Shown here one piece after another: positions 12,931-45,933 of a DNA stretch of 64,000 nt. Numbering within the stretch: position 1 is the first letter of the stretch; each line of letters opens with the position of its first letter. The position numbers and the translations under genes were made by a program. Below the pieces are notes generated by a model, which saw nothing but the letters and a program-made list of their open reading frames with translations, had not been told where the DNA came from and searched no databases. The stretch lies in NCBI GenBank assembly GCA_013334225.1, contig JAAXXY010000015.1:1-64000 (forward strand), written 5' to 3'. The DNA is from Chlorobiaceae bacterium (lineage in GTDB: Bacteria > Bacteroidota > Chlorobiia > Chlorobiales > Chlorobiaceae).

Positions 12931-12942
12931 GATGGTTCTCCC

Positions 12943-15668: not shown

Positions 15669-15751
15669 AGCTTTTTACCTCTTAGCGGGCACTTATGACG
15701 ACTGGTGCGCAATTCAGCTGCTACTCAGTACGATTTTCTGTGTGCCCTTTT

Positions 15752-15787: not shown

Positions 15788-15804
15788 AAAAAAATTCTTG
15801 CTAC

Positions 15805-17184: not shown

Positions 17185-17205
17185 GATACTGTAATCTCCT
17201 TATCG

Positions 17206-18837: not shown

Positions 18838-18874
18838 GTAACTCTCTCCGTTTACACCTTGAAAATTGTTTTTG

Positions 18875-19252
18875 TTAGTTCAGCGCGGCCTCTGCCTGTT
18901 CTCCTGTTCTCACCCTTATGGTTTCCAGGATCGGCGTTACAAAGATCTTGCCATCACCGGGCTTGCCTGTCTGGTTAGTCTTGATGATGATGTCAATTGC
19001 TGTTTTGCACAGATCGTCAGGGACTACCACGGTCAAAATTCTCTTCGCCACAAGCCTCGGTGCGTTGCCAAGCTGGGCGATCGCTTCGGGATGGCCAGCT
19101 TCCGCGCCTCTGAGAATGTCATAGTGAACCTGTCCCTTACCACGCCCCATAACTCTCCCGGTGGCTGTGAATGCCGGGATGCCTGCATCGACGAGAGCCT
19201 TTTTCGTTTCGTTCACCTTGTTGATCCTGATAACTGAAATGATCTCTTTCAT
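18875..19252 (-). CDS. nifI2: PII-like nitrogenase regulator NifI2
   Basis: GlnB-family protein of 125 residues. The T-loop region (GRGKGQVHYDILRGAE) is longer and different from housekeeping GlnB, and VPDDLCKTAIDIIIKTNQTGKPGDGKIFV is the conserved B-loop and C-terminal core. In methanogens NifI1 and NifI2 form a complex that inhibits dinitrogenase when nitrogen is plentiful and is relieved by 2-oxoglutarate; the same gene order here argues for the same control. It begins directly after nifI1. Confidence 0.93.
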   Translation of the reverse strand: MKEIISVIRINKVNETKKALVDAGIPAFTATGRVMGRGKGQVHYDILRGAEAGHPEAIAQLGNAPRLVAKRILTVVVPDDLCKTAIDIIIKTNQTGKPGDGKIFVTPILETIRVRTGEQAEAALN

Positions 19253-19609
19253 TCAGGCCTCCTTCGATGCTGCAAGCAGCGGTTCGGTTTCCAGTTCACC
19301 CGTGCTGATGGTATAAACCTCTTCAACTGCTGAAACAAAGATCTTGCCGTCACCGAATTTGCCGTCAGGGCCGGACTTGGCATTCTCGAGGATTGCGCGT
19401 ATAACGAAATCCTTGTCGGTATCCGGCACAACGACAATCAGCATCTCCTTGGGGATTTCATCATACACCACATCTCCGACCCGGAGTCCGCGCTGCTTGC
19501 CGCGACCGACAACAGGAATTTTCGTTACTGCCGGATAGCCTGCATCGAGCAGCCCCTGCATGACTTCATATACTTTTTCCGGCCTGACGATTGTTCTGAT
19601 CATTAACAT
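19253..19609 (-). CDS. nifI1: PII-like nitrogenase regulator NifI1
   Basis: GlnB-family protein of 118 residues beginning LMIRTIVRPEKVYEV, with GRGKQRGLRVGDVVYDEIPKEMLIVVVPD for the T-loop region and GDGKIFVSAVEEVYTISTGE for the C-terminal signature. It is the partner of nifI2 and lies between nifH and nifD. The ATG at 19609 has GGAG nine bases ahead; a second ATG two codons later is less well placed. Confidence 0.93.
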   Translation of the reverse strand: MLMIRTIVRPEKVYEVMQGLLDAGYPAVTKIPVVGRGKQRGLRVGDVVYDEIPKEMLIVVVPDTDKDFVIRAILENAKSGPDGKFGDGKIFVSAVEEVYTISTGELETEPLLAASKEA

Positions 19610-19629
19610 GTTTGTGTGCTCCGTTTTTT

Positions 19630-20466
<837 letters not shown>

Positions 20467-26835: not shown

Positions 26836-27705
26836 TCAGAGTTTCATGACAACAGGATTGAATGCTTTGGATGCGACAAGTACTTCATCTCCGACTTTGA
26901 GGTCATCCATGTCATTTTCTGTTAAAACGATCTCGAACAGTTCATTGCCTGAGCCTATGACTGCGAGATAGATGCAGTCGACTTTTCTGATGCTCAGAAT
27001 GGTGCTTGCAAATGAAAATTTGTTCGATGTGTTCCGGTTGAGAAATACCTCTGGAGCTGTGCCGTTCCGGACCACTTGTCCCATTTCGAGAATGGTCACT
27101 TTGTCGGAAAGCTTGAAAACCTCCTGTTTGTCATGGGAAACCAGCAGGGTTGTCAGGTTGAACTGCTTGTGAAAATTCAGAATTTCATCCTGCAGATTTG
27201 TCCGGGTTTTCTGATCGAGTGCAGAAAGCGGTTCGTCGAGAAGCAGTATTTCCGGTTCACGGAGAACGGCGCGAGCCAGGGCGACACGCTGTTGCTGTCC
27301 TCCCGAAATTGAAGATGGAAAGCGGTCCTTGAGAGCAAGAAGGCCTGTCAGTTCAAGCAGTTCACGGACTTTTCCGTCGTTTCTTTTTTCCTGCGCGAAC
27401 AGCAGGTTTTCCCATACTGTCATAGTCGGAAAAAGCGAATAGTCCTGAAAAACGAACCCGATTTTCCGTTTCTGTGGAGGCAGGTTGATCCTGGCATCGC
27501 TGTCGAACCAGACCTTTCCGTTGACCTCGATATATCCTCTTTCAGGTTTGACAAGCCCGGCAAGGATACGGAGCAGGGTAGTTTTTCCGCTTCCGGATTT
27601 TCCGTAAATGGTTTGCAGCGTACCAGGCAAAATGCTGAGATTGAGCGACAGGTCGAAATACCCTTCTGAACCGGAAAGTTTCTTTGTCACTTCGAGACGG
27701 ATCAT
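26836..27705 (-). CDS. modC: Molybdate ABC transporter ATP-binding protein
   Basis: ATPase of a ModABC importer; 289 residues. Walker A is YGKSGSGKTT near residue 35, the signature is SISGGQQQR, Walker B EILLLDEPLSALD, and the H-loop LLVSHD. The last 65 residues form a single TOBE-like domain. It overlaps the molbindin-like gene by four bases and is divergent from TonB receptor 2; modB lies about 4 kb away on the other strand. Confidence 0.9.
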   Translation of the reverse strand: MIRLEVTKKLSGSEGYFDLSLNLSILPGTLQTIYGKSGSGKTTLLRILAGLVKPERGYIEVNGKVWFDSDARINLPPQKRKIGFVFQDYSLFPTMTVWENLLFAQEKRNDGKVRELLELTGLLALKDRFPSSISGGQQQRVALARAVLREPEILLLDEPLSALDQKTRTNLQDEILNFHKQFNLTTLLVSHDKQEVFKLSDKVTILEMGQVVRNGTAPEVFLNRNTSNKFSFASTILSIRKVDCIYLAVIGSGNELFEIVLTENDMDDLKVGDEVLVASKAFNPVVMKL

Positions 27706-28118
27706 GATCTGCGGCGATCTTTTTGCGGGTTTGCGTCAAGCGAAAGCTGGCTCGCTTTTATCATTATCGTGACAGATTCATTTTCAAGCAATTGCATGCG
27801 TTCAAGAGCTTTCATGGTAATGATGCTGGTAACGGTTCCTGCGGGGCATTCCAGCCGTATATCGGCAAGTATACTACCTTGCCTGATTTCTTTTATGAGG
27901 GCGGAAAAACAGTTCAAGATACTTGTTTCACCGGAAAAATTTTTAACAAGGGAAACTTCGGTTTCCTTGAAAAGGACGGTAACATGGCATCCGGCAGAAA
28001 ATGAAGCATCGAGATCGAAAAGCAGCATGCCAAGTACAATACCTGATGCTTCGAGTTCGAGGAAACAGAGAGTTTCCTGCCGGTCAATACATTTGATGAT
28101 AGCCTGAATGTGATTCAT
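27702..28118 (-). CDS. Tandem Mop/TOBE molbindin-like protein
   Basis: Small protein of 138 residues from ATG 28118. Two consecutive TOBE/Mop-like repeats are visible, the second ending PAGTVTSIITMKALERMQLLENESVTIMIKASQLSL, the pattern of molybdate-binding molbindins and ModE/ModC tails. The open frame continues 16 codons upstream to 28166, but the family similarity starts at MNHIQAIIK. It overlaps modC and probably stores or delivers molybdate to it. Confidence 0.75.
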   Translation of the reverse strand: MNHIQAIIKCIDRQETLCFLELEASGIVLGMLLFDLDASFSAGCHVTVLFKETEVSLVKNFSGETSILNCFSALIKEIRQGSILADIRLECPAGTVTSIITMKALERMQLLENESVTIMIKASQLSLDANPQKDRRRS

Positions 28119-28278
28119 GGTTTTGAATACCTGCTGACCGAAAGAGATTCCTTTTGGTGAAAGCATCCGGAAGCCGGTTCGTTTATTTATATTTGATTAT
28201 CAATTTGCAGAGCCTTTGTTGATATTAAATTTTTTAGCCTTCATAAAAAAATATCGAATATTTATTAGGCTTAACAAT

Positions 28279-28379: not shown

Positions 28380-28483
28380 TTCTGTTAAACGATTTTTTAC
28401 TGATAATGTTATGTTTGGGTGGGAGGGTGTTCTTTCTTAATTCAGTATACAGGGAAATCGGATTTCCCGTTTTTTTTAACAAG

Positions 28484-28506
28484 CGTTATTTCTTCAGGAT
28501 ATAACG
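28484..28506. promoter_or_regulatory. ModE-type palindrome at the start of TonB receptor 2
   Basis: CGTTAT (28484-28489) and ATAACG (28501-28506), 23 bp overall, ending 17 bp before the receptor ATG at 28524. The position would block the promoter or ribosome site. Confidence 0.7.
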
Positions 28507-28523
28507 AAAGTGTTCATTCTGTC

Positions 28524-30752
28524 ATGAAAAAAATTTTTCTGCTTGTTTTACTTCTTGCTGTATCTGAAACCGCTTTCGGCAGCGGAACAGCATCTGATGT
28601 ACAACTGATTGCCGCAAACAATTTCACCGCTGAGGAGATTGTTGTAAACGGTAAAAAAGGTGATGTTCTTCAACGTGTGACCGGCAGGGAATCAGAAGTG
28701 CTGAATCCTTCACAGATGTCGGTTTACAAGGCGATCAATCTCATGCCTTCATTGAGCCAGCAGAGTGTTGACCCATATGGCCTTGCAGATATTGTTAATT
28801 ATCACGAATCATTTCGTTTCAGGGGGGTCGAAGCAACTGCAGGAGGTGTACCCGCTACGACGGTGAACGTAGAGGGGCTTCCGGTAACCGGCCGGCCAGG
28901 GGGTGGTGCGACCATCTACGATCTCGAAAATTTCAGCAATATCAGTATCTATTCCGGTGTCATGCCAGCCTATGCCGGGCTCGGTATGGCTGATGTCGGC
29001 GGAAAAATCAATATGGATATCCGTCGTCCTGAAGACAAATTCGACCTGCAACTTAAAGAGGGTGTCGGCAGCCATGATTTCCGTCGCACGTTTGTAAGAA
29101 TCGATACCGGATTGCTGCCGGGCGACATCAAAGGTTTCGTGTCCTTTTCCGATGCTTCAGCCGACAAATGGAAAGGGGAGGGTGACAGCAAAAGGAAAAA
29201 CGTGATGGGTGGTGTGACGAAGCAGTTCGGGGACAATGTGAAACTCGAAACCTTCGTTACCTACAGTAAAGGGACGATCCATGCTTACATGCCGTTCACC
29301 TATTCACAAATCAGCAACCTTGATTACGTCTATTCGGCCGATTATGGTACCGATCCGAAGAAATACAATTATTATGATTACAACAAAAACGAGTTCGAAG
29401 ACTGGATGGTGATGGCAAACCTCGAGATTAAAACCGGGGAACATTCGGCTCTTTCCATCAAGCCCTATTACTGGAGCGATAATGGTTACTATATGGAGAC
29501 CATAACGCTTGCCAACAGCCAGAACCGGATCAGAAGATGGGATATAGACCACGATCTGAAAGGAATTCTCGCCGAATACAAGACTACTGCAGCCTCGACT
29601 GACCTTGATATGGGATATCTCTACCATACACAGTCACGTCCTGGTCCGCCGAGTTCCTGGAAGAACTATAAAGTCGATTCGAACGGCAACCTTGTTTTTG
29701 ATCAATGGACACTTCTGTCGAACGATTCGAGCCATGAACTGCAGACTCTATTCATCGAGGGGAAACATCGTTTCGGGGATTTTCAGATCGAGGGAGGCCT
29801 GAAGTATGTCATCTATTCACTGCCGTCGGTCATAACGTATAATACAGCCGGTATTGGCAATGTCAGCTATTATGATGCGCTTGCGACCAACCCTGCTGTA
29901 GTCGCAGCATCGAGTGCTCCGGATGCGAAAACTTTCAGGCGCCTTTTTCCGGATATCACTCTGTCGAGGATCCTGAACGACAATGTTACCTTTTTTGCCT
30001 CTTACGGTGAAAACTATGTCACCCATGTCGATATCTATCCCTATTACATACAGCAGCTGAGCTATTTCACCAGCAAAGGGATTACATTCCAGCAGCTCTG
30101 GGATAAAAAAGTGATGGAAATTTCGAAGAATTTCGAGATTGGCGTAAAAGCGAAAGGAAATAACTGGAGCATCATTCCGATATTCTATTATACAAAGCAC
30201 GACAACAAGCAGGCGGTTCTTTACGATGATGCGCTGGGTGCATACTATCCCATGAACAATGCAGAAGCTGACGGGTACGGGTTCGAAGTGGAGGGAGAGT
30301 ACAAGCCGCTCAAAAACCTCAAATGCTACGGTTCCTTTTCCTGGAACAAGTTCTGTTTCTCGCAGGATATCAACTCTGACGCATCAGGAAACAGCGTTAT
30401 CAGAGTCAAGGGAACCCAGGTTCCGGATGCACCTGAATTCCTTGCAAAAGGTATGATCAGTTATACAATCGGAGATTTTACCATAACACCGATTGTGCGG
30501 TATACTTCCGTACGTTATGGAGATGTTTTACATCAGGAAAAGGTTGATGGTGCAACACTTTTTGATCTTGATTTTACCTGGAGCAGGTCGATGTTCGGAT
30601 TTAAAAATGTCGATTGTTCACTGTCTTTTCTCAACATATTTGACAAAAAGTATATCAGCCTTATCAGTACTTCCGATTACAAAACTTTGAAGACATCATA
30701 TCTGCCAGGAGTTCCTTTCACTGTTATGGCGACAGTTGCTTTCCATTACTGA
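28524..30752 (+). CDS. TonB-dependent receptor 2
   Basis: Outer-membrane receptor of about 742 residues. The open frame extends 35 codons upstream, but ATG 28524 begins a clear signal peptide (KKIFLLVLLLAVSETAFG) and lies after the operator, so it is the start. A TonB-box-like EEIVVNG lies near residue 35. The plug domain includes YDLENFSNISIYSGVMPAYAGLGMADVGGKINMDIRRP. The barrel ends in an aromatic Tyr. Substrate unknown; ModE-type sites upstream and modAB downstream argue for a molybdate or Mo-chelate substrate. Confidence 0.88.
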   Translation: MKKIFLLVLLLAVSETAFGSGTASDVQLIAANNFTAEEIVVNGKKGDVLQRVTGRESEVLNPSQMSVYKAINLMPSLSQQSVDPYGLADIVNYHESFRFRGVEATAGGVPATTVNVEGLPVTGRPGGGATIYDLENFSNISIYSGVMPAYAGLGMADVGGKINMDIRRPEDKFDLQLKEGVGSHDFRRTFVRIDTGLLPGDIKGFVSFSDASADKWKGEGDSKRKNVMGGVTKQFGDNVKLETFVTYSKGTIHAYMPFTYSQISNLDYVYSADYGTDPKKYNYYDYNKNEFEDWMVMANLEIKTGEHSALSIKPYYWSDNGYYMETITLANSQNRIRRWDIDHDLKGILAEYKTTAASTDLDMGYLYHTQSRPGPPSSWKNYKVDSNGNLVFDQWTLLSNDSSHELQTLFIEGKHRFGDFQIEGGLKYVIYSLPSVITYNTAGIGNVSYYDALATNPAVVAASSAPDAKTFRRLFPDITLSRILNDNVTFFASYGENYVTHVDIYPYYIQQLSYFTSKGITFQQLWDKKVMEISKNFEIGVKAKGNNWSIIPIFYYTKHDNKQAVLYDDALGAYYPMNNAEADGYGFEVEGEYKPLKNLKCYGSFSWNKFCFSQDINSDASGNSVIRVKGTQVPDAPEFLAKGMISYTIGDFTITPIVRYTSVRYGDVLHQEKVDGATLFDLDFTWSRSMFGFKNVDCSLSFLNIFDKKYISLISTSDYKTLKTSYLPGVPFTVMATVAFHY

Positions 30753-30849
30753 GTTTTTTCTCTCTCTACGCTCTTTCTCGTTTCCCGACTTCCGGTATAT
30801 CTCCGGTGCCGGAAGTTTTTTTAAATGCCGTTTGATTCTGATTACAACC

Positions 30850-31575
30850 ATGCAAAAGAAACCATTTTTATTCCTGTTCGCTTTTTTGCTGCTCGTATCT
30901 CCGGTGCTTCAGGCAGAGAACATAACAGTTGCCGCAGGCGGAGGATATAAAAGACCTCTGATGGAGATTGCCGAAAGATTCGAGAAGAAGACCGGATATC
31001 ATATCGATGCTGTTTTCGGGCATATGCAGCAGATATTTTCCCAGGCACAGATGACCGGGCAGATATCGGTACTTTTCGGTGAAAGAAGTTTTTTTGAGCA
31101 GTCAGGAATCACCTTTGCATCCCATTACCCTCTGGGTCAGGGAAAACTCGTTCTTGCATGGCGTAAAGGATTGCTGATAAAGAAAATAAGTGATATAAAG
31201 GGAAGCTCTGTCACAAAGGTGGCCATGCCGGATGACAAAAAGGCTGTCTATGGCAAAGCTGCCGGCGAGTATCTGCAGAAGTCAGGACTTGGCAGCGATA
31301 TAAGCGGCAAACTGCTTGTCGTTTCCACGGTACCACAGGTTTCCTCATATCTTGTAACGGGTGAAGTCGATGCCGGTTTCATCAATGTTACCGATGCCAT
31401 CGGTGTTCAGGACAATATAGGCGGCTATCTTCCTGCCGAGCAATCGTACTACACACCGATTTTTATCCAGGCAGGTGTTGTCAAAGGATTCGAGAATCAG
31501 GCAGGTGTTGTCGCCCTGATGAAATTCCTCAGGGAAAAAGAGGCTATTGCCATCCTGAAACATTATGGTCTCTGA
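30850..31575 (+). CDS. Second ModA-like substrate-binding protein
   Basis: Periplasmic binding protein of 241 residues. A signal peptide (KKPFLFLFAFLLLVSPVLQA) is followed by the ModA-like opening ITVAAGGGYKRPLMEIAERFEKKTGYHI. It lacks the ASL motif of classical ModA, so it could bind molybdate, tungstate or a related oxyanion. The annotated open frame continues upstream to 30736, but ATG 30850 is the one with the signal peptide. Its stop overlaps the permease start (TGATG), so the pair is co-translated. Confidence 0.82.
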   Translation: MQKKPFLFLFAFLLLVSPVLQAENITVAAGGGYKRPLMEIAERFEKKTGYHIDAVFGHMQQIFSQAQMTGQISVLFGERSFFEQSGITFASHYPLGQGKLVLAWRKGLLIKKISDIKGSSVTKVAMPDDKKAVYGKAAGEYLQKSGLGSDISGKLLVVSTVPQVSSYLVTGEVDAGFINVTDAIGVQDNIGGYLPAEQSYYTPIFIQAGVVKGFENQAGVVALMKFLREKEAIAILKHYGL

Positions 31576-32255
31576 TGAAGCACTACCTCGATATTGTTTC
31601 AAGCAGAGGGATGGCAGATATCCTCATCCTGACCGCTGAAACGTCGCTTGTAACCCTCGTGCTTCATTGTATCTCCGGAGTGGTTTCAGGATATTTTTTT
31701 ACCCGCAAAAGAAGCGTATTCACTTTTCTTGCAGATGCCCTGATCACCATTCCCCTTGTTTTTCCTCCAATCGCTACAGGTTTCCTGCTGCTTCTCCTGC
31801 TTGGAAGAAACGGGCTGATAGGAAAGGCTTTACTGTCCTCGGGTTCCGGGATTATTTTCAGTAAAACCGGCGTTTTCATTGCCTCCTTTATAGCGGGTCT
31901 GCCCCTTGTTGTCAAATCGGTCCAGGCTGCCGTCGAAGGGGTTGACCCATCCCTGTGCGAGGCGGCATGGACACTGGGCAAAAACAGTTTTCAGACATAC
32001 CGTTTTGTTGTACTGCCTGCAATCAGGAATGCACTGTTGTGCGGTCTTGTCCTTTCACTGGGCAGGTCGCTTGGTGAAGTCGGTATAACGCTCATGCTCG
32101 GAGGCAATATCATCGGCAAAACCGAGACCGTATCGCTTGCAGTCTACAACGCCGTTTTTGAAGGAAATTTCGAAAAAGCGGCAGTGCTTTCCGTTTTGCT
32201 TGGCGGAGTGTCGATCGTTCTGTTCTATGTATTGCAGAAATTCGGTAAACCATAA
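31575..32255 (+). CDS. modB: Molybdate-type ABC transporter permease
   Basis: Integral-membrane permease of 226 residues with about five or six spans. The cytoplasmic EAA loop (EAAWTLGKNSFQTYRFVVLPAIRNALLCGLVLSLGRSLGEVGITLMLGGN) near residue 135 is the ModB/CysT signature. It overlaps the upstream binding-protein gene. Its ATPase is probably the ModC at 26836. Confidence 0.9.
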   Translation: MKHYLDIVSSRGMADILILTAETSLVTLVLHCISGVVSGYFFTRKRSVFTFLADALITIPLVFPPIATGFLLLLLLGRNGLIGKALLSSGSGIIFSKTGVFIASFIAGLPLVVKSVQAAVEGVDPSLCEAAWTLGKNSFQTYRFVVLPAIRNALLCGLVLSLGRSLGEVGITLMLGGNIIGKTETVSLAVYNAVFEGNFEKAAVLSVLLGGVSIVLFYVLQKFGKP

Positions 32256-32366: not shown

Positions 32367-32390
32367 CATTATAACATTTAAACTATAACG
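32367..32390. promoter_or_regulatory. ModE-type site upstream of TonB receptor 3
   Basis: CATTAT (32367-32372, one mismatch to CGTTAT) and ATAACG (32385-32390) with 12 bases between, ending 11 bp before the receptor ATG. Confidence 0.6.
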
Positions 32391-32401: not shown

Positions 32402-34321
32402 ATGAAAAACAAATCAGGCAGACTGATCATGCTTCTGTCGTTACTGAGCTCTTCGGCATTTTCTGATGTACAGGCATCCGCTCAGTCAATCAATAGCGGC
32501 CAGTCGGAGGAAATTGTCGTGACAGCGACACTCAACGAAACACCGGTTTCGAAAGTCCCGGCGGCAGTCGAAGTGATCGAGAGAATGGAAATCACCGAAA
32601 GCGGTGCTGCAACACTTTCCGATGTGCTCACGGAAGCCCAGAGCATCACCCTCGAGCCGACGAACGGTCGTCTCAGCGTGGCAAGACTGCGCGGACTGAA
32701 CAGCCGGAATACGTTGGTACTTATCGACGGTATGCGTTTATACGGCGGATTCCAGGGCTATCTCGATCTGGGTGAAATACCTGCCGGGATGATCGAGAGG
32801 ATCGAGATTATCCGCGGTTCCGGATCAGCACTTTACGGCAGCGATGCGATAGGGGGTGTTATCAATGTCATTACGAAGAAGCCCTCGAAAGATCTCCATG
32901 CCGGGCTGAACATTTTTTCCGGCGAGAGCGTATATGGTGAAGCTGGTAGTATCAATACGAACGGCTATATCAGCGGCACCCAGGGAAAACTGGGATATGT
33001 CTTTTCAGGTACCTGGAACAACAGAGACAGGTATGACAGGGACAAGAGCAGTCTCATGACGGATGGAGATGACCGGAGATCTGGAGCGTATTCCACTTCA
33101 TTGAATTACCGGCTGACATCGGGAGTTAACCTTTCGTTCGGTATCAATTATGCCGATACTGAACTCGATGGCATAAGGACTCAGCTTCAGAACAAAGTCT
33201 ATGTCGATAAAAACAGGAAAGTCGAAGCTGACCGCCTGCTCGGTTATATCGGACTTGACGTCGATACCGGTACAGAATCGAAACTTACGCTTCGCGCCCT
33301 GCAATCGCATTACGACTGGCGATCAGACATGCAACCGCTTGCAGGAGGTGCTGTGGAAACAACAACTCTTGAACAGAAATCAAGGGAGTACGAGGGAAGG
33401 TGGACGATAAAATTGTCTGACAGTCACCGGATTACGACCGGAATGGAGTACAGTTCCGAAGACAGGTCCGATAACGGCATTTCATATGATGCCCATAACT
33501 TCGCGGCGTTTCTGCAGGATGAAGTGCAGCTTGCAGAACCTCTCGGATTGGTATTTGGTGCGAGATATGACGATCATTCCGATTTTGGTAACGCATTCAG
33601 TCCCAAAGTGGGCCTCTGGCTTAAGCTTGGCGAACATCTTCGACTGAGGGGATCATACGGAGAAGGGTTCCGGGCACCAACCCTCTATGAGCTTGATACA
33701 GGATCATTGACGACCAAAAACAAGATCATCTATGCCAACCCGAACCTCGATGCCGAGAAATCACGTTCCTATGAAATCGGAGCTGATGGAACGTGGGGCG
33801 CATTCTCGTGCGGTGTTACCGCTTTCCGCAACGATATGAGTGATATGATCGGTGAAGTCAGGATCGGTATGAGTGGAAGCACTCCTGTTTATGAATTGCG
33901 GAATATTTCGAGCACCATGACCCAGGGTCTTGAATTTACGGCAGGCTTCAGGCTGGCACCGGGTCTTACGCTTTCCGATGAGCTGACGCTTCTCGGAACT
34001 GAAGATAAAACAACCGGTTATGATCTGCTCTATGTTCCTGATGCAGTAAATACGGTGAAACTTTTGTTTAAAGCCGGGAGCGGTTTCAGCGGCAATATCA
34101 GGGTCGTTACGACAGGTCGGCAATGGATAGACACGGCGACCCGTACCGATCCTTATACGCTTGTGAACTGTTATCTCGGTAAAAAGATCTACGGAAATTC
34201 AGAACTGTTCATAGGTGCAGACAATATTTTCAATGTTGAAGCCAATGCGGCTTATGGCAACAGTGGCGGGCCGGCATCGACAGGTACCTGTTTCTACGGA
34301 GGAATCATTTGTGCCTTCTGA
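32402..34321 (+). CDS. TonB-dependent receptor 3 (BtuB-like)
   Basis: Outer-membrane receptor of 639 residues. A signal peptide (MKNKSGRLIMLLSLLSSSAFS) is followed by a TonB box EEIVVTAT and a plug domain with RLRGLNSRNTLVLIDGMRLYGGFQG, IERIEIIRGSGSALYGSDAIGGVINVITKKP. The barrel ends in Phe. It is close to vitamin-B12/colicin-type receptors in plug sequence, but its ModE-type operator and the preceding modAB point to a Mo substrate. Confidence 0.88.
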   Translation: MKNKSGRLIMLLSLLSSSAFSDVQASAQSINSGQSEEIVVTATLNETPVSKVPAAVEVIERMEITESGAATLSDVLTEAQSITLEPTNGRLSVARLRGLNSRNTLVLIDGMRLYGGFQGYLDLGEIPAGMIERIEIIRGSGSALYGSDAIGGVINVITKKPSKDLHAGLNIFSGESVYGEAGSINTNGYISGTQGKLGYVFSGTWNNRDRYDRDKSSLMTDGDDRRSGAYSTSLNYRLTSGVNLSFGINYADTELDGIRTQLQNKVYVDKNRKVEADRLLGYIGLDVDTGTESKLTLRALQSHYDWRSDMQPLAGGAVETTTLEQKSREYEGRWTIKLSDSHRITTGMEYSSEDRSDNGISYDAHNFAAFLQDEVQLAEPLGLVFGARYDDHSDFGNAFSPKVGLWLKLGEHLRLRGSYGEGFRAPTLYELDTGSLTTKNKIIYANPNLDAEKSRSYEIGADGTWGAFSCGVTAFRNDMSDMIGEVRIGMSGSTPVYELRNISSTMTQGLEFTAGFRLAPGLTLSDELTLLGTEDKTTGYDLLYVPDAVNTVKLLFKAGSGFSGNIRVVTTGRQWIDTATRTDPYTLVNCYLGKKIYGNSELFIGADNIFNVEANAAYGNSGGPASTGTCFYGGIICAF

Positions 34322-34865: not shown

Positions 34866-35864
34866 TTACTCGACCTCCTCGATCAGCTCACCGCTCCTGA
34901 GCCTTGTGCGGAGAGCCATCAGCCTGTTGTCGAGCGCCTCGAGCATTGCGAGATTGTTTTTTTCCTTTTCTGTTGTTCTGAGGACCTTGTGGATTGCTCC
35001 GTTCCTGATGACGAGCCTCCGTTCAGCCATCAGTGCAAGGATGGGGTCATGGGTCGCCATCAATACGATTTTTTCTTTTCTTACAAGCAGTGAGAGCGCT
35101 TTTTTCCTGTCGATGCCCGCATTTTCTATTTCGTCGATCAGTACAACCGGTGAGGAACTGAGAAATGCCGTATCTGCGATCATCAGGGCCCTCGATTGTC
35201 CCCCCGAAAGGGAGGTGACCGGGGTTTCCGCACAGAACTGCTCACCAGCAAGCAGGTTTGCCTGTACGATAATTTCTTCTACCACTTCCGGAGCATTGCC
35301 GATCATGCGGCTTTCTGCATGCAGGGCCACGAAATCGGCTGCCGTGATATCCATGACGAAGTTCATGTTCTGCGAAAGCTGGGCAACCAGCTTGTATTCA
35401 AGTGAAAATCGCAGGTCGGGATCCGGGATATCGCCATTCACCAGTATTGCGCGTCCTGTTGGCGTATCACCCTGTGCCATCCATTCGATGTCCGCCAGCA
35501 GGCGGCTCTTGCCTGAACCGGTCGGCCCGACGATACTGGTTACCGAACCGCGGACGAGAGTAAGCTTCACCTCTTCAGGTTTTCGGCTCTTGTCGTGACC
35601 GCCGATTATCGTGATATCGTTCACTGGCGGCAGTCTGCTGTTCAACGTTTCATTTTTCTGCAGGATAAAACCTTCGATCTGTTCCTTCAGACCGAACCGG
35701 TCGATACCCATGTCTTCATAGATTTCTTCCGGCAGGGAATCCAGATATGAGTTGAGGGACAGATCATGGTTTTCGGGTGCAAGTCCATAATCATGCAGGA
35801 TCCCGGAGATTTCGGGTACCTCGGTCATGAGATGGGCTATTTTCCGTTCGAACATCCCTGTCAT
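34866..35864 (-). CDS. ABC-type ATPase without permease, third gene of a Mo-linked triad
   Basis: Soluble ATPase of 332 residues. Residues 1-95 are a helical N-terminal domain (ISGILHDYGLAPENHDLSLNSYLDSL) that faintly resembles the ScdA/DUF1858 N-terminal fold but lacks cysteines. The ABC domain follows: Walker A GPTGSGKS near residue 120, signature TSLSGGQSRALMI, Walker B SPVVLIDEIENAGID and H-loop MATHDP. No permease lies nearby. The start ATG 35864 overlaps the GTPase stop (ATGA). A longer upstream frame exists but would overlap the GTPase extensively. Confidence 0.8.
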   Translation of the reverse strand: MTGMFERKIAHLMTEVPEISGILHDYGLAPENHDLSLNSYLDSLPEEIYEDMGIDRFGLKEQIEGFILQKNETLNSRLPPVNDITIIGGHDKSRKPEEVKLTLVRGSVTSIVGPTGSGKSRLLADIEWMAQGDTPTGRAILVNGDIPDPDLRFSLEYKLVAQLSQNMNFVMDITAADFVALHAESRMIGNAPEVVEEIIVQANLLAGEQFCAETPVTSLSGGQSRALMIADTAFLSSSPVVLIDEIENAGIDRKKALSLLVRKEKIVLMATHDPILALMAERRLVIRNGAIHKVLRTTEKEKNNLAMLEALDNRLMALRTRLRSGELIEEVE

Positions 35865-36559
35865 GATGCGTTCTCCTGCAGTTTTATCCTTTTGATGTTT
35901 CCAAGTTGGAACTCCATGCCGATCCTTGTTTCGCCAAGGCAGTAGGAGCAAAGTGCGGCAGGCATTGAAAAACGCAGTCGTTCGCCTTCGAGGTTCACGG
36001 TTTCAGGGGCCTTGACGAACTGCGAAGCAAGTTCACTCGCTCCCTGACCGGTGATTCCGTTTATATGCATGATCTTCGCTTTCGGGTTTGCCCTCCGGAC
36101 CTGGAAGGCGAATACTTCCCGTTCAGCCTGGGAGACGATGTCACCTTTCGAGATGACAACGATGTCGGCATATTTGAGCATCGGGCCGATTTTTTTCGGT
36201 GTAGTCGCCCCCATGAGATTATCGATGACGCAGACGGCGAGTACTCCCTTGATATGAGGTGCACAGCGATTGCACAAACCGGCGCTTTCGGAAAGCAGGA
36301 TGTCGAGTCCGAGATCGAAACCCCACTTCAGGCATTCCTCGATATTGCTGACGAAGTAATGATCGGGACAGAGATTTCCCGAAAGTCCTGTCTGAACAGG
36401 AATGCCGAGCGAACGGAAGCGTTCGTCGTCATCGGTTGCAAGACAGTCGTATTTCAGAGCACCCGGACGCAGACCGGAGGCTTTCAATGATTTTGTGACC
36501 CCGGACAGAACCGCGGTTTTTCCGGATGACGGAGGGCCGGATATCGTGACAAGTTTCAT
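35861..36559 (-). CDS. UreG/HypB/CobW-like GTPase
   Basis: P-loop GTPase of 232 residues. Walker A is GPPSSGKT at residues 8-15; LLSESAGLCNRCAPH parallels the ENxGxLVCP metal motif of HypB; a VISKGD stretch is the G4-type base motif. Further cysteines are in ALCSYCLGET. The family inserts metals (Ni, Co, Zn) into enzymes using GTP. It overlaps the ATPase gene by four bases, and the solute-binding-like gene lies 27 bp upstream. Confidence 0.8.
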   Translation of the reverse strand: MKLVTISGPPSSGKTAVLSGVTKSLKASGLRPGALKYDCLATDDDERFRSLGIPVQTGLSGNLCPDHYFVSNIEECLKWGFDLGLDILLSESAGLCNRCAPHIKGVLAVCVIDNLMGATTPKKIGPMLKYADIVVISKGDIVSQAEREVFAFQVRRANPKAKIMHINGITGQGASELASQFVKAPETVNLEGERLRFSMPAALCSYCLGETRIGMEFQLGNIKRIKLQENAS

Positions 36560-36586
36560 AAATGATGATCGATGGTCATAGAACGT

Positions 36587-37660
36587 TCAGGTCTGGAAAA
36601 CATCGGGGAGAAGCCCTTTTTTCAATTCGATATCGAGAGTCGCAACCAGCTCTTCGTAATCGTTGTTCAGGAGATACTCCCATGAAGGATAGCTGAACGG
36701 CTGTGACCAGTCAAATTCTTCGGCAAGACGGAAATCCCCCCTGCGCAACGCCTGCCTCATAGCCTTACTGTGCAGGAAATTGATGAGCGGACGGCATTCT
36801 TCCAACCGTGATGTCTTGACATACATCAGCATTGGCGCGAGCACAGGTCCGTCCTCGAATTCGAGGATTGCGGCCTGTTTTTTTGTCGGCATCTGAACGG
36901 TTGCCGCATTCGGCAGCAGGTTGAAGGGTGTCCGGCGAGGTTCCGTCGAATCCAGTCTCTTGAGGATCTCTGCGAAGTGCCAGACGTTTCGGATGTTTCC
37001 GGCAAAGTCCATTACGGCATTCCTGCCGAGCTTTTCCGTGAGTATGAGCAGAAGAGCCGCGATGCTTGCCTTGCCGTTATATCCGTGAACCGTTATGAGT
37101 CCTTTATAGAGCGGATCGACAAGATCGGTCCAGCGATGCGGATAAGGCACGATGGTATTGAGTGAAAGATCGCAGACAATGCTCCATTGTCCTATGCTGA
37201 AAATACCGATATTGTTTTCAGTTGCGATTTTTCTGTATGTTTCAGGCATCTGCCTGAGCGCCATTTCACTGGTGATGCCTGTGTAAATGCCTGAATCGAT
37301 GAACATTTTCTTGAAGTTTGTCGACAAAACGGTATGCAGTCCTGAAGCGATCATGATTTCCGGTATCTCCTCTTCACTTCGGGCCGACTTCAGTTCACCC
37401 TCGATACCTTTGGAATCACCGTCAAGCAGCATGGGAGAGTAGATCGGTACCTCATGCGATGCATTATAAATCTCGACAAATTCTCCTATTACCATTTTTG
37501 CCACGACTTTTAGCGGGCAGGGCATGTTCATGTAAAGATTGATTGCCCCTTTTTTGAGAAGGGGTATACCGTTTCCAGTAGATTTGCGGGTAAGCGGTGG
37601 AGAACCGCATGTTGCAAGAACGCTGCCGTCCCTGTCAATCCGGTCAAATGATTTTATCAT
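36587..37660 (-). CDS. Solute-binding-protein-like, no signal peptide
   Basis: Protein of 357 residues with the type-2 periplasmic-binding fold (resembling iron(III)/oxyanion binding proteins): MNMPCPLKVVAKMVIGEFVEIYN, later NIGIFSIGQWSIVCDL, VHGYNGKASIAALLLILTEKLG. The N-terminus (MIKSFDRIDRDGS) has no hydrophobic export signal, so it may act in the cytoplasm. It is the first gene of the three-gene operon with the GTPase and ATPase. A ModE-type palindrome lies about 75 bp upstream. A role in Mo or Mo-cofactor handling is inferred from that operator. Confidence 0.75.
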   Translation of the reverse strand: MIKSFDRIDRDGSVLATCGSPPLTRKSTGNGIPLLKKGAINLYMNMPCPLKVVAKMVIGEFVEIYNASHEVPIYSPMLLDGDSKGIEGELKSARSEEEIPEIMIASGLHTVLSTNFKKMFIDSGIYTGITSEMALRQMPETYRKIATENNIGIFSIGQWSIVCDLSLNTIVPYPHRWTDLVDPLYKGLITVHGYNGKASIAALLLILTEKLGRNAVMDFAGNIRNVWHFAEILKRLDSTEPRRTPFNLLPNAATVQMPTKKQAAILEFEDGPVLAPMLMYVKTSRLEECRPLINFLHSKAMRQALRRGDFRLAEEFDWSQPFSYPSWEYLLNNDYEELVATLDIELKKGLLPDVFQT

Positions 37661-37733
37661 GCCTCAAATGATGTTGTACAGATACCGAGTCAAGTCTTGT
37701 TTCTTTATTTCAAAAGCGGGATTCATACCGAAC

Positions 37734-37757
37734 CGTTATTTATTGTATTGCATAACG
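37734..37757. promoter_or_regulatory. ModE-type palindrome upstream of the GTPase/ATPase operon
   Basis: CGTTAT (37734-37739) and ATAACG (37752-37757) with 12 bases between, extended to CCGTTAT/ATAACGG. It lies about 75 bp ahead of the solute-binding-like gene and matches the modA and TonB sites in spacing. Confidence 0.7.
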
Positions 37758-40171: not shown

Positions 40172-42409
40172 TCATGCAATCTGCCGGTTGGCGAGTTCCC
40201 TGAAAAGTCCTTCCTGAGACATAAGTTCTTCATAGGTGCCCTGCTGGACGATACGACCTGCATCAAGACAGTATATCCGGTCCGCATGGCGGATGGTGCT
40301 GAGCCTGTGGGCGATAACGACCCTGGTAACCTTGAGTTCTTCCAGGCTTTTGCTGATTATCTCCTGGGTATGGTTGTCAAGAGCGCTTGTTGCTTCATCG
40401 AAAAAAATCATTCCAGGTTTTCGAACGAGTGCTCCTGCAATCAGAAGGCGTTGTTTCTGTCCTCCCGATATGGTTTCGCTTCCCTCGCTGATGATTGTAT
40501 ACATTCCCATCGGCATTTTTCGGATATCCTCGTCTATACCCGCCAATTTAGCCGCTTCCCAGGCATCTTCGACTGTCAGTGCCGAAGAGCCGACAATAGT
40601 GTTCAGGATGAAACCCGGTTGCAACTGCGCATTCTGAATAACGACGCCGATCTGACGGCGGACCGCCTGAACATTCAGGGTTGCGAGGTCGATACCATCG
40701 AAGAATACCGTACCGGTATCTGGTTTTTCGAACCCGAGAAGAAGCCTCATCATGGTTGATTTTCCCGAACCTGAGCTGCCGACTATTGCAATGAACTCTC
40801 CTGGTTCCGCATTCAGTTCAATATCGTGAAGTATCTGGGGCCCTTCTGTGGAATAACTGAAATTGACGCTTTGCAATTCGATCTGCCCTGTCAGCTTTCC
40901 AGGCTGTGTCCTGCTCCGTGTCGTTTCGGGAAGGGTATCGAGCACAGGTTTGATGCGTTCGTAGAGAGGAATGATGTCGAGGCTTGCAATGATGGTCAGC
41001 GTCGATTGCAGAAGTGCCGTCTGAAAGGTCGTATAAGCAGTCATGAAAGCGATGAACGAGCCGCAGGTGAGATGTTCTCCGGTTAAAGGGCTTCCGGCGG
41101 TAAAAATGATGAATGCCATGGTTATAACCGGAAATGAGGCTGCTGTGATGTCAAGAATGTTTCCGAGAACACCAGCCTGTAATGTCAGGTCACGTTCCTT
41201 TCTGAATTTTCCGGCCCATTGTGCAAATGCATACTTTTCCGTGCCGGTGATCCTTATTTTTGCTATTCCGGTCAGGAGATTGCCAAGCAACCCGGAGATG
41301 CTTCCCCGGGTTTCAAACAGGAGCTTTTTGAACCCCAGTTGCCTGTAACTTGTCAGAACGGTAATACCCATCAGTATACCTGTAAGGGCAGCTGCAACAA
41401 ATGCGAGCTTCCAGCTGTAAAAAAACAGCAGGAAAAAATTCAGGAAACCGAACAGCATGCCGAGAAGGGCGGATATCACCGCACTGCTCAGGGTTTCGCG
41501 AATCCTGGAAATGCCGAGGATTCGGTTCGCAAGGTCTCCTGCGGAAAAATTTCTGAAAAAGATACTGGGGAGATTGAGCAGGCGGTCGATGAATGCCGGC
41601 TGGAGTTTTATATCCATGCGGGATTGCACTCTCGTCACCATTATCTGTCTTCCAAGATCGAAACCGCAGGCAGCTGTCACACTGGCGGCAAGGATTATTG
41701 CAAAGGGAAGCAGTTGTTCTCTTGATGACTGGAGAATAATCGTATCGAAGAGAATACCGGTCATTACCGGTGTCAACAGGCCGATCAATGCTCCTGCCAA
41801 ACCGAGCAGGATAGTGCTGCCGATATCGGATCTGCTTCCGGAAATGCCGAAACGGAGGATTTCCCGAAGGTTCAGGACCCTGTCCATGAAAGGCCTGTAG
41901 AAAGCCCAGGCGGTTTCGGTATCAACTTCACTTTGCAGGCCTGCATCAACAATGAATTTTTCTCTGGTTTGAGGATCGATCATCATGTACCCTTTGCGGC
42001 CGGGAATGAGAGCGACAGGATTCCGGCCGGGACCCCGGTAGGCAAGAAGGGGCCCGTTCTCCTGTTTCCACCATGGACCGTCTTTTGAAAGATTTACTTT
42101 CCTTATCCTGATACCTGAATGCAGGCAGATCAACTGAAGGGGATCTTCGCACAAAGGGCCGCCCGTTTCCTGAGGCGGCGCGCTGATGACGATATCGGTG
42201 GCATTTCCGACCAGGACGCATGCGGCAAGGAGGGGATCGGCATATAAAGGAAAGGAACCTGTGTTGTCTTTTTCGAGGATACCTGCCAGGCCTTCGAGAG
42301 CTTTTCGGTAACTTTCCTCCTGGAAAAGAGATTTTTCGGCAAAGCGCTTTCCTGAATTTTTTCCTGCTGTCTGTTTATTCAGATGTTCTGTTCCGGTTTC
42401 CATGGGCAA
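40172..42409 (-). CDS. RiPP exporter ABC permease/ATPase (no peptidase domain)
   Basis: Membrane ATPase of 745 residues of the NHLP-type export family. Residues about 1-170 are a cytoplasmic domain of that family without the C39 cysteine; about 200-470 holds six membrane helices; about 500-740 is the ATPase with Walker A GSSGSGKST, signature ISGGQKQR and Walker B IFFDEATSALD. It starts two bases after the peptidase-containing exporter gene and probably pairs with it. Confidence 0.85.
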   Translation of the reverse strand: MPMETGTEHLNKQTAGKNSGKRFAEKSLFQEESYRKALEGLAGILEKDNTGSFPLYADPLLAACVLVGNATDIVISAPPQETGGPLCEDPLQLICLHSGIRIRKVNLSKDGPWWKQENGPLLAYRGPGRNPVALIPGRKGYMMIDPQTREKFIVDAGLQSEVDTETAWAFYRPFMDRVLNLREILRFGISGSRSDIGSTILLGLAGALIGLLTPVMTGILFDTIILQSSREQLLPFAIILAASVTAACGFDLGRQIMVTRVQSRMDIKLQPAFIDRLLNLPSIFFRNFSAGDLANRILGISRIRETLSSAVISALLGMLFGFLNFFLLFFYSWKLAFVAAALTGILMGITVLTSYRQLGFKKLLFETRGSISGLLGNLLTGIAKIRITGTEKYAFAQWAGKFRKERDLTLQAGVLGNILDITAASFPVITMAFIIFTAGSPLTGEHLTCGSFIAFMTAYTTFQTALLQSTLTIIASLDIIPLYERIKPVLDTLPETTRSRTQPGKLTGQIELQSVNFSYSTEGPQILHDIELNAEPGEFIAIVGSSGSGKSTMMRLLLGFEKPDTGTVFFDGIDLATLNVQAVRRQIGVVIQNAQLQPGFILNTIVGSSALTVEDAWEAAKLAGIDEDIRKMPMGMYTIISEGSETISGGQKQRLLIAGALVRKPGMIFFDEATSALDNHTQEIISKSLEELKVTRVVIAHRLSTIRHADRIYCLDAGRIVQQGTYEELMSQEGLFRELANRQIA

Positions 42410-42411
42410 AT

Positions 42412-44589
42412 CTATCCTTTTGCGATCAGTCCGGCATATGCACCTCCGGCTTTCATCAGAGCGGTATGGGTACCCCGTTCAATGACCTTTCCGCCTTCAA
42501 GAACGATAATTTCGTCGCAGTCACGGATTGTGCTGAGCCTGTGGGCTGCGATCAGGCAGGAACACGACCTCCTTCGAATGTTTGTATCGATGATTTTTTC
42601 CGTTGTCGGGTCCAGGGCGCTTGTCGCTTCGTCGAGGATCAGTATGGAAGGGTTATATGAGAGTGCCCGTGCAATTTCGATCCTCTGGCGCTGACCGCCG
42701 CTGAAATTCCTGCCTCCTTCGCTCAGGATCGACTGATATCCACCGGTTCTCGCAATGATCACATCATGGATTGCGGCGTCCATTGCCGCACGGGTTATCT
42801 CTTCATGCGGGAGTGTCATATCCCACATGGCGATGTTTTCAGCTATCGTTCCTTCAAAAAGAGTGATTTCCTGATCAACCATACTTATTGATGAAGCCAG
42901 CTGATTACGTGAAATATCTTTTCTACGATTATTGTCGAAGAGCACTTCACCGCTCCAGGGCTCGTAAAGTCCGGCTACAAGTTTTGCAATGGTGGATTTG
43001 CCCGAACCCGAGCTTCCCACAAGCGCAACCCGTTCTCCAGGCCTGAGCTTTAGGGAGAAATTTTCAATCAGTGGGGGTTCAAGCGGATTATAGCCGAAAG
43101 TAATGTTCCTCAACTCGATATCGCCCGTCAGTTTTTCGAACTCTGTGCAACTTTCCGTATGGTCAACCGAGAGCCCGATCTCGTTCTCCATTACATCGTC
43201 AAGCCTTTGCAGGCAGGCCTGCGTGTCCTGGAGTTTCTGGCCGAGGGATACCATCTGGTTGACCGGGGCAAGGAATGAAAGCAGGAGGCTCTGGAAGGCG
43301 ACAAGCATGCCTATGGTCAGATTTCCTTCCATGACACGAAGCCCCCCAACGGTTAGAATGGCTATGTTTCCAAGCGACTGGAGGAACGGAGGAAGAGCGA
43401 GAAGAAAAACGGTTGCGATCTGAAGCTGCTGGCGCCCGTTGACCATATTGGCGAAAAGCCCGGTCCATCTGGAGAAATAATCCTGTTCACCTCCCGATGC
43501 TTTAAGGCTTTCGATAGTCCTGATGCCGTAATAGGTCGTTCCGGTAAGCTTTCCGTTGTCATGCAGGAATTTCCGGTTGAGGGTAATGCGTTTTCTCGAT
43601 GCATAGAAAAGCGCGGCAGCATTCAGGCCGGCTATCATGACAGCTCCGGCAGTGAGGATGGCATCATACCTGAGCATAAGGAGAGCATAAAAAAAGATCA
43701 GGAGCACATTGAGGGATTTTGAAGAAAGTTCGCCTGCCAGCAGCGAAGCAATCTGATCGTTAAGCTGTACGCGGTTGGAGATTTCACCTGCCTGACGCAT
43801 GGTGAAAAAACGCATCGGCATGGCGAAGACATGGTTGAAGAATTTTGCGGACGATGCAAGCGCAAGTTTTGTTTCGGCCCTGAGGATGTAATACTGCTGC
43901 AGCCATGTCATGAAACCCTGAAACAGAGCTGTCAGAAGCATGCCCAGCAAGAGCGGTCTGATCCAGTCGGTCATTCCTTTTACAAGGACATAATCGATGA
44001 ATATTCTCAGAAATGAAGGAACTACCAGGCCGGGAAGTACAAGCAGCACTGTAGCAAGAATGATGAAGGTCAGCGCCTTTTCCATGCCCGATACCCTTTT
44101 CTGTAATGCTTTCAGGAGGCTGAATGGTTGTCCTCCCTTTTTGAAATCGGCAGTTGGCTCGAATGTAATGGCAATTCCGGAAAATGAGTCGCTGAACTCA
44201 TTCAATGTGATTTTTCTCTGGCCCGATGCAGGATCGTTGATGTAATAATATCCTTTCCTGAAGCCCTCGAACACGACGAAATGGTACATGTTCCAGAACA
44301 GGATCATGGGAAGTTTCTTTCTGTGGAGATCGTCAAGGTCAAGCCTGCATCCTTTTGCTTCGAGGCCGTATTTTCCGGCAGCTCTGATCAGGCTGCTTGC
44401 CTTGCTGCCGTCACGGTTGACTCCACAGTCGACCCGGAGCTTCTCCAGGGGGACATGACAGCCGAACCAGGCAAGAACCATTCCCAGCGAGGCGGCTCCG
44501 CACTCGACAGCTTCCATCTGGAGGATCGTAGGTGTTTTGATCCTTGCTTCATCCCAGAGTTTTTCGGAAGGAAAGAGCATGAAGCTCAT
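42412..44589 (-). CDS. Peptidase-containing RiPP ABC exporter
   Basis: Membrane protein of 725 residues. The N-terminal C39 peptidase (about 1-140) has its cysteine in MEAVECGAASLGM, histidine in MYHFVVFEGF and aspartate in INDPASG, so it can cut leader peptides after double Gly. Six membrane helices follow (about 170-450), then the ATPase with Walker A GSSGSGKST, signature FSGGQRQR and Walker B ILILDEATSALD. The Nif11-class precursor at 47567 has the required Gly-Gly. Confidence 0.9.
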   Translation of the reverse strand: MSFMLFPSEKLWDEARIKTPTILQMEAVECGAASLGMVLAWFGCHVPLEKLRVDCGVNRDGSKASSLIRAAGKYGLEAKGCRLDLDDLHRKKLPMILFWNMYHFVVFEGFRKGYYYINDPASGQRKITLNEFSDSFSGIAITFEPTADFKKGGQPFSLLKALQKRVSGMEKALTFIILATVLLVLPGLVVPSFLRIFIDYVLVKGMTDWIRPLLLGMLLTALFQGFMTWLQQYYILRAETKLALASSAKFFNHVFAMPMRFFTMRQAGEISNRVQLNDQIASLLAGELSSKSLNVLLIFFYALLMLRYDAILTAGAVMIAGLNAAALFYASRKRITLNRKFLHDNGKLTGTTYYGIRTIESLKASGGEQDYFSRWTGLFANMVNGRQQLQIATVFLLALPPFLQSLGNIAILTVGGLRVMEGNLTIGMLVAFQSLLLSFLAPVNQMVSLGQKLQDTQACLQRLDDVMENEIGLSVDHTESCTEFEKLTGDIELRNITFGYNPLEPPLIENFSLKLRPGERVALVGSSGSGKSTIAKLVAGLYEPWSGEVLFDNNRRKDISRNQLASSISMVDQEITLFEGTIAENIAMWDMTLPHEEITRAAMDAAIHDVIIARTGGYQSILSEGGRNFSGGQRQRIEIARALSYNPSILILDEATSALDPTTEKIIDTNIRRRSCSCLIAAHRLSTIRDCDEIIVLEGGKVIERGTHTALMKAGGAYAGLIAKG

Positions 44590-44701
44590 GCGTTTATTCC
44601 TCTGTCGTAACTGTTGAAAAGTATTTCAGCTGAGTTGTTCATAAGTTGTCGGCTCTTCCGTGACAAGGCAGATAAGGGAAAACTGCTGGAAATGATGTTA
44701 T

Positions 44702-45820
44702 TTACATGAAATCGGGAAACAGAATATTTTTCATCATCGGAATTATCAGTTCGATTGGAGACTGTTCTTCGACCACAATCTTTCCTGAACAGAGAATACC
44801 GGAGGAGATGGTTGTTCGGGGATCTCTGCCGGAAGTCCACCTGAAACCGCTGCTGTTGGAACGGTCCCTGAGGAGTTTGACAGTAACTTTGTAAGGGGGG
44901 CTTGAAAGGACGAATTTACGGGCAAGCTCCTCGTTTCTTATTTCTGCAGCAATGGATTGGACGGAAACAGGGTATTCGCTTATATACAGCACTTTTCCCA
45001 CGATATACCCATATTCCTCAGGTTTTACGATTGAAGGCGCAATATATGCTTCCATACCTTTCCTGATTTTTTTCGCGTTTCCCGAAGCGATGTACAGGTC
45101 GAGTTTTATGTCACCGGACTTGTTGTTTATGAAAGGTTCAACCTGAAGCAGTTCAATACCGGGGGAAACCGGTTGTCCATTTGTAACCTTGATTTCTGTC
45201 ACCATTCCGGTAACAGGAGAAATGACAGTTGAACGCCATTTATAGTTCTCCCTTGATTTTTCAAGGTTTCTTTCTGCGTCGGCAAGGTCGTTGTCAAGTT
45301 TGTAAAGGCTGTTTTTGAGCTCCATGACCGATTGTTCGGTCGAAGCCCGGGTTCTTTTATTCATCGTGGGTTTGCCGGGTTGCTCATCAACTCTTGCAGC
45401 CTTTAGCTCCAGCAGTGCAATTTGCCTTTTCAGAAATGAACGTTTCTCGGCCTGATGAGAGAGCTGAAACTCATAGGCCGAGAATGCTGAAAGAAATTCG
45501 TGCTTCAGTTCAGGCTGTTCGATGATAGCGAGAATTTCACCTTCCTGAACCGTCTGTCCATCCTTGAGATTGAAATCGGTAACGGTACCTGCTGAACGGG
45601 ATGAAATCGATTGTACGGTCTCGGCACCCATGGTAATGCCTTGACCCTCGACAGTCGTATCAATCTTGCCCCAAATGACCCATGCAGTCATCGCCAGAAT
45701 GAAAATGGCGGCTGAAAGAAGCGCTATCCAGCCACGCCGGTCTGTAACCGGGATGAGACGGTCAAGATCATCAGGGGAACTGAGCTTTTTGAGAGCTTCC
45801 TTTCTGAACTCGATGGCCAT
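44702..45820 (-). CDS. HlyD-type secretion adaptor of the RiPP exporter
   Basis: Membrane-fusion protein of about 372 residues from ATG 45820, where the family start (AIEFRKEALKKLSSPDDLDRL) begins; the frame extends 13 codons upstream. A single span lies near residues 30-50. The half-motifs of the biotinyl-like lobe are seen in GTVTDFNLKDGQTVQEGEILAII and SPVTGMVTEIKVTNGQPV, separated by a coiled coil (about 120-200). It is divergent from the radical SAM gene with 113 bp between. Confidence 0.85.
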   Translation of the reverse strand: MAIEFRKEALKKLSSPDDLDRLIPVTDRRGWIALLSAAIFILAMTAWVIWGKIDTTVEGQGITMGAETVQSISSRSAGTVTDFNLKDGQTVQEGEILAIIEQPELKHEFLSAFSAYEFQLSHQAEKRSFLKRQIALLELKAARVDEQPGKPTMNKRTRASTEQSVMELKNSLYKLDNDLADAERNLEKSRENYKWRSTVISPVTGMVTEIKVTNGQPVSPGIELLQVEPFINNKSGDIKLDLYIASGNAKKIRKGMEAYIAPSIVKPEEYGYIVGKVLYISEYPVSVQSIAAEIRNEELARKFVLSSPPYKVTVKLLRDRSNSSGFRWTSGRDPRTTISSGILCSGKIVVEEQSPIELIIPMMKNILFPDFM

Positions 45821-45933
45821 GAAGGAATATTTGAAACAGAGATTGGAAACTGTCTGCAAAAAACAGGGTTTATATGTCCCTGCTATAAAAAACGCAAGTT
45901 ATTGCAGTCCTTTTAACGTTTAATTTATTGTTA

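Follow-up and report, generated by a model that had tools for sequence, protein, structure and literature searches.

Organization of the Locus

The window analyzed here is a 64,000-nucleotide stretch of contig C39 in a 3.05 Mb Chlorobiaceae genome (labeled G000). Three of its genes, which we call the triad, encode a protein resembling a solute-binding protein (SBP), a GTPase, and an ABC ATPase, and a ModE-type operator lies in front of them:

36587-37660, minus strand: SBP-like gene, 357 aa, FbpA fold, Pfam SBP_bac_6
35861-36559, minus strand: GTPase gene, 232 aa, G3E-type, HypB/UreG class
34866-35864, minus strand: ABC ATPase gene, 332 aa, soluble, Pfam ABC_tran
37734-37757, no strand: ModE-type operator CGTTAT-N12-ATAACG, perfect dyad, 74-97 bp 5' of the SBP start

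An open reading frame check of the window found the three genes where the initial annotation had placed them. The SBP stop is followed after 27 bp by the GTPase start, and the GTPase stop overlaps the ATG of the ABC gene (ATGA), so the triad is organized as an operon. No permease gene adjoins its ATPase in the window. Also next to the triad, positions 40172-47436 hold a C39-peptidase ABC exporter, a second ABC exporter, and HlyD-like and radical SAM proteins, a possible cluster for RiPP biosynthesis and export.

ModE-Type Operators and Molybdenum Genes

The operator dyad in front of the triad (37734-37757) reads CGTTATGCAATACAATAAATAACG. Perfect copies of CGTTAT-N12-ATAACG number three in the 3.05 Mb genome, where ∼0.19 would be expected from base composition, and all three (at 11031, 11175, and 37734) fall in the window beside Mo genes; with up to two mismatches allowed, the window holds 8 sites against 1.5 expected. 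The Mo and nitrogenase genes of the window are the following:

6257-7066, minus strand: ModE regulator, HTH_1 and two TOBE domains
7355-8116, minus strand: ModA-type binding protein (SBP_bac_11), with a 1-mismatch operator upstream at 8223-8246
9017-10843, minus strand: TonB-dependent receptor, with two perfect operators in front at 11031-11054 and 11175-11198
11656-20454, minus strand: Mo-nitrogenase nifH, D, K, E, N, and B, with a perfect sigma-54 promoter at 20543
26836-28166, minus strand: ModC-type ATPase and Mop/TOBE-domain protein
28419-30752, plus strand: TonB receptor
30736-31575, plus strand: ModA-like protein
31575-32255, plus strand: ModB
32402-34321, plus strand: TonB receptor, with a 1-mismatch operator at 32367-32390

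The operators at 11031 and 11175 are upstream of a TonB receptor gene which itself precedes the genes for ModA and ModE, and 1-mismatch operators precede ModA (8223) and another TonB receptor (32367). The ModE protein (6257-7066) is the presumed reader of these sites. On contig C99, whose origin from the same organism is putative given an assembly contamination of 6.9%, a 1-mismatch site (L142:4903) stands before anfH (4976) of an Fe-only nitrogenase cluster, and another precedes an AnfA-like activator gene. The genes for the ModA-like protein and ModB are sandwiched by two TonB receptor genes, with those for ModC and the Mop-domain protein divergent, and this arrangement (28419-32255 and 26836-28166) resembles a locus for TonB-fed uptake of molybdate or a molybdophore.

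The initial annotation had tied the triad to molybdenum through its ModE-type site. That link holds, in that the triad has a perfect dyad upstream, the genome encodes ModE, and mod and Mop genes are neighbors; a link to nitrogenase can be added. The operators before the triad, the Mo uptake genes, and anfH make it plausible that the triad, Mo uptake, and alternative nitrogenase form one Mo-starvation regulon. A consensus scan found no sigma-54 promoter close upstream of the triad. Only the window and its closest relative (L021, 1 mismatch) have an operator immediately in front of the SBP gene; in most other Chlorobi, the ModE-type sites lead a larger operon or flank the triad, and none is directly before the SBP gene. 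One such site adjoins a gene for a TP_methylase (tetrapyrrole methylase; L023:2126-2929), and similar-sized genes lie beside ModE-type sites in L025, L027, L028, and L036.

Features of the Three Proteins

The SBP-like protein matches Pfam SBP_bac_6 (E 9e-57), and the best PDB matches of its AlphaFold2 model (pLDDT 90.6) are ferric-binding FbpA proteins (Foldseek E 7e-12). Within its first 45 residues, the most hydrophobic 12-residue stretch has a hydropathy of 0.82; the 45 family members range from 0.12 to 2.06, against 2.7-3.5 for true ModA and FecB, and no hydrophobic N-terminus is present in the window protein or in 44 relatives. On this measure, an ordinary signal peptide is excluded, as the initial annotation had claimed. 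Few columns are invariant across the 43-45 SBPs compared, and one of them is Cys48 in the first-strand loop (MNMPCPLK), which is retained in all of them, down to 14% identity; the loop around it is near-invariant, and H228 is nearly so. In the model, Cys48 sits where the first helix begins, and given the FbpA fold we infer that it may lie in the ligand cleft. The fold and two-lobe architecture are common to the periplasmic proteins of the FbpA/AfuA type, and Cys48, judging from the first-strand loop, would stand near the place of FbpA His9; unlike those proteins, however, the triad SBP has no signal peptide and often carries an N-terminal DUF1858 domain, which is found in many family members.

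The GTPase matches Pfam cobW (E 2e-10, 40.8 bits versus a cut-off of 20.7), and its nearest solved proteins are HypB and UreG, whose cargo is nickel, not Mo. It combines the P-loop, Walker-B glutamate, and profile match of the G3E family, with the Walker-B E91 invariant and aligned with ESGG of UreG. Among 50 sequences, the motifs C64-P-D-H67, C96-N-R-C99, C110, and C204-x-Y-C207 are near-invariant, and C96, C99, C204, and C207 are invariant. The first of these motifs aligns (HMMER) with the Cys-Pro-His nickel site of UreG, so that the protein has a predicted metal site of the Cys/His kind present in G3E metallochaperones. This retained Cys-Pro-x-His position agrees with the earlier assignment of the protein to the metal-insertion class. 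The triad GTPase is nevertheless not HypB or UreG proper, as it scores far below both NCBIfam equivalog cut-offs (47.2 of 121.2 bits for HypB and 24.8 of 204.2 bits for UreG). Nor is it the hydrogenase HypB, since a distinct, His-rich HypB-like protein is encoded in the genome near HypF-like genes; RecA matches in the comparison were P-loop repeat artifacts. Fold, P-loop, Walker-B glutamate, and Cys-Pro metal position are shared with UreG and HypB, whereas the extra CNRC and CSYC pairs, a G4 motif of [ST]KGD in place of NKxD, and the partnership with an SBP and an ABC ATPase set the triad protein apart. Taken with the near-invariant Cys48 loop of the SBP, the CPDH, CNRC, and CSYC motifs point to metal handling, which on these sequence features is the most likely role of the triad.

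The ABC ATPase (Pfam ABC_tran, E 1.5e-12) is made up of an N-terminal domain of 4-5 helices (approximately residues 1-75), a nucleotide-binding domain with intact Walker A, signature, and H-loop motifs, and a C-terminal helix. Its N-terminal helical domain has no significant Pfam match, and the fold search returned nothing more specific than an ABC ATPase, with SmsC among the best matches. Like SufC/SmsC, it has a nucleotide-binding domain without a membrane partner, but it differs in having its own N-terminal helical domain and a Walker-B region LIDEIENAG, and in having no SufB/D-like partner.

Distribution and Association with Import Operons

A GTPase scan of the genome collection, together with six-frame profile searches, gave 81 loci. 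Within 3.5 kb of the GTPase gene and on the same strand, an SBP gene is found in 75 of these, an ABC ATPase gene in 77, and both in 72; the three-gene set is thus conserved, far more often than chance would give, and the triad is a cytosolic operon that forms a real unit. Six Clostridium loci encode the GTPase and ABC ATPase fused in one ORF. A seventh such ORF, in the Chlorobi locus L037 (G052), is a truncated copy and, with a decayed triad in another Chlorobi genome (G201, L038), suggests ongoing loss of the triad in Chlorobiaceae. The carriers belong to Chlorobiota, Bacteroidota, Bacillota, Thermodesulfobacteriota, Deferribacterota, Pseudomonadota (L056, L058, and L060), and Spirochaetota, plus one Actinomycetota MAG; a further search added Fusobacteriota, for a total of about nine phyla. 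A distant 37% match in Burkholderiales (L147/L148) was left out of the triad members. The plasmid search for the triad returned a Fusobacterium record alone.

In most Chlorobi relatives, the triad sits in a larger operon with the order FecCD-FecE-TonB receptor-class I methyltransferase-FecB-SBP-GTPase-ABC-TonB protein. ModE-type sites lie in front of this import operon, and anfH is divergent from it in G161. The complete co-operonic TonB/FecBCD importer and the methyltransferase suggest that the triad probably works just after uptake of a metal or metallophore. FecCD accompanies the triad in 14 of 17 Chlorobiales loci and in 18 of the 63 other loci, and near the triad in those 63 we also find FecB (22), methyltransferase (14), ModA (12), Mop (9), an HTH/PBP regulator (7), and DUF364 "heavy-metal chelation" proteins (2). 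The initial view that the ATPase lacks a membrane partner is therefore correct for the window, where none adjoins it, but holds only in part for the family, since a permease goes with the set in many relatives. In the annotated operons this FecCD has its own FecB and FecE, and so its presence does not make the triad an importer.

An ordinary importer can be set aside, as the initial annotation had proposed, because the SBP is unexported and the set has no permease of its own. An unorthodox one, with the ABC ATPase powering a FecCD or ModB permease nearby or elsewhere, would fit the FecCD counts above and the 2.6 kb distance between the window triad and ModB; we nonetheless consider it very unlikely, as the nearby permeases have partners of their own in FecB/FecE or ModA/ModC, the one clear FecCD in the window genome neighbors cobalamin genes at the edge of contig C7, and neither an unexported SBP nor an ATPase bearing a soluble N-terminal helical domain suits such a role.

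The main rival to the delivery model developed below is metallophore processing, in which the trio would strip Mo, V, or Fe from a chelate imported through TonB/FecBCD and recycle or destroy the chelator, with no delivery to a client. The Chlorobi operon order, the FecB, FecCD, methyltransferase, and DUF364 genes at the other loci, and an SBP fold closest to ferric-binding proteins all argue for it. Against this, ModAB and TonB receptors, not FecBCD, adjoin the window triad, most Clostridium and Geobacter loci likewise have no adjoining FecBCD, and a HypB/UreG-type GTPase is typical of insertion rather than of chelate breakdown. We regard this reading as rather unlikely, though less so than the importer.

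Association with Nitrogen Fixation

Among 50 non-Chlorobi carrier genomes, picked without regard to nif, 47 encode NifB and three do not. In the genus Clostridium, the set and NifB occur together in 13 species and are both missing from 47, 4 species carry the set without NifB, and 4 carry NifB without the set (Fisher p = 1.4e-7, a value that ignores shared ancestry). These counts show that the set co-occurs with nif. The Clostridium gene order is Mop-[GTPase-ABC]-SBP-HTH/PBP-AnfO-nifH-nifI1-nifI2-nifD-nifK, with moaA/moaC and modA beside it; in L138, the triad directly precedes nifH-nifI1-nifI2-nifD-nifK and follows moaA, moaC, and modA, with an AnfO homologue in between. AnfO homologues also stand upstream of nifH in Clostridium genomes without AnfG (L102 and L103; G335 and G336), and AnfO-like proteins may thus also serve Mo-nitrogenase. 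Always between AnfO and nifH in the Clostridium loci is a family of ∼310 aa with a weak MORN_2 match and no Pfam hit above the cut-off (L102:8025-8966). At another Clostridium locus (L136:791-2405, G402), the triad adjoins a second copy of the ABC gene as well as NifV/homocitrate-synthase-like genes.

The association has exceptions in both directions. The triad is absent from approximately 47 of 65 Chlorobiaceae and from 4 of 17 NifB-positive Clostridium; so many diazotrophs without it indicate that it is not essential for Mo-nitrogenase. An obligate tie to Fe-only or V nitrogenase was rejected, because AnfG is found in just 18 of the 50 non-Chlorobi carriers and the AnfG-triad link within Chlorobiaceae is not significant (5/18 versus 4/47, p = 0.10, ancestry ignored). 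A strict replacement of NifQ was rejected as well: although 51 of 54 carriers have no NifQ, the remaining three, all Pseudomonadota, possess both. Three of the four NifB-less Clostridium carriers (L131, L132, and L133) share one gene type, and L131 groups with the Fusobacterium copy at full support in the GTPase tree, so that the nif-less carriers include one sublineage. The Fusobacterium copy adjoins Zn/Mn-type importers in a species, F. vincentii, that presumably has no nif, and the cargo of the triad may therefore not be nitrogenase-specific.

This copy, and the nickel GTPases that are the nearest relatives of the triad GTPase, would favor insertion of nickel, zinc, or iron into a client common to anaerobes, the Mo link being indirect. 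With the separate His-rich HypB of the window genome, and with mod, Mop, moa, nif, and anf genes as the neighbors in the main lineage, we judge this improbable.

Relation to the Azotobacter vinelandii Operon

The initial annotation knew of no described system with this composition. That statement has to be withdrawn, since Appia-Ayme et al. 2022 already placed one in the VnfA1 regulon of A. vinelandii. The operon comprises an SBP (Avin_02430), a "nickel binding GTPase" (Avin_02420), and an ABC ATP-binding protein (Avin_02410), followed by a nitroreductase (Avin_02400) and a glutamate-cysteine ligase (Avin_02390); it is activated by VnfA1, is sigma54-dependent, and is on without Mo, and all but its last gene are kept in Proteobacteria with V-nitrogenase (PMC9542535). 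No further paper in the literature searched names the Avin_02430-02390 loci. By the published description, Avin_02430-02410 match the window triad in components and order, are expressed without Mo, and are linked to alternative nitrogenase, and orthology is likely. The operons differ in that the A. vinelandii one is under VnfA1/sigma54 control and continues into the nitroreductase and glutamate-cysteine ligase genes, and in that it was described only in V-nitrogenase Proteobacteria, whereas the triad occurs in about nine phyla, mostly without AnfG/VnfG. The two downstream genes count in favor of metallophore processing. For one lineage, then, this composition had already been reported; new here are the spread across phyla and the nif co-occurrence beyond V-nitrogenase, along with the cysteine signature, the importer link, and the predicted ModE-type control.

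The same study describes VnfZ, an unexported VodA paralogue and cytosolic SBP that controls VnfA3 according to vanadium (PMC9542535). Like the triad SBP, it is a cytosolic SBP in a Mo/V-responsive nitrogenase regulon, but its partner is an enhancer-binding protein, whereas the triad SBP is partnered by two NTPases. A cytosolic metal sensor on the VnfZ pattern, in which the SBP reports metal status to regulators and the NTPases are effectors, could also account for the HTH/PBP regulator near 7 of the 63 loci. No regulator is constantly linked to the triad, however, and two NTPases that have retained their catalytic motifs and cysteine sites from phylum to phylum fit turnover better than signaling; we hold a sensor to be quite unlikely.

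Proposed Role

The reading that we prefer, and to which we give about an even chance, is that the triad is a cytosolic, NTP-driven module for metal capture and delivery, used when Mo is scarce. The unexported SBP would close around incoming Mo, V, or W, either free or as an imported chelate, with Cys48 holding the metal. The Cys/His site of the G3E GTPase would then receive it, with GTP hydrolysis gating release, while the soluble ABC ATPase, acting by way of its own helical N-terminal domain and not a permease, would power SBP opening or the formation of the transfer complex. The metal would be passed to nitrogenase cofactor assembly and probably to other Mo/W users. In this delivery model, we infer the bound metal, the order of transfer, and the acceptor.

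What is known of the Mo (or V) route to cofactor assembly comes mainly from Proteobacteria that have NifQ. More tentatively, and as a possibility that we would not call probable, the triad may be an importer turned inward, which moves heterometal between cytosolic proteins and not across a membrane and so forms the path by which Mo/V reaches nitrogenase cofactor assembly in metal-limited anaerobes that lack NifQ. The set, deeply conserved and following nitrogenase through about nine phyla, offers specific cysteine sites to mutate. Tractable hosts are Clostridium, where the triad lies in the nif cluster, and A. vinelandii, going by the published composition of its operon. Should the triad deliver metal, NTP-driven metallochaperones would gain a new class, and the engineering of nitrogen fixation a candidate part.
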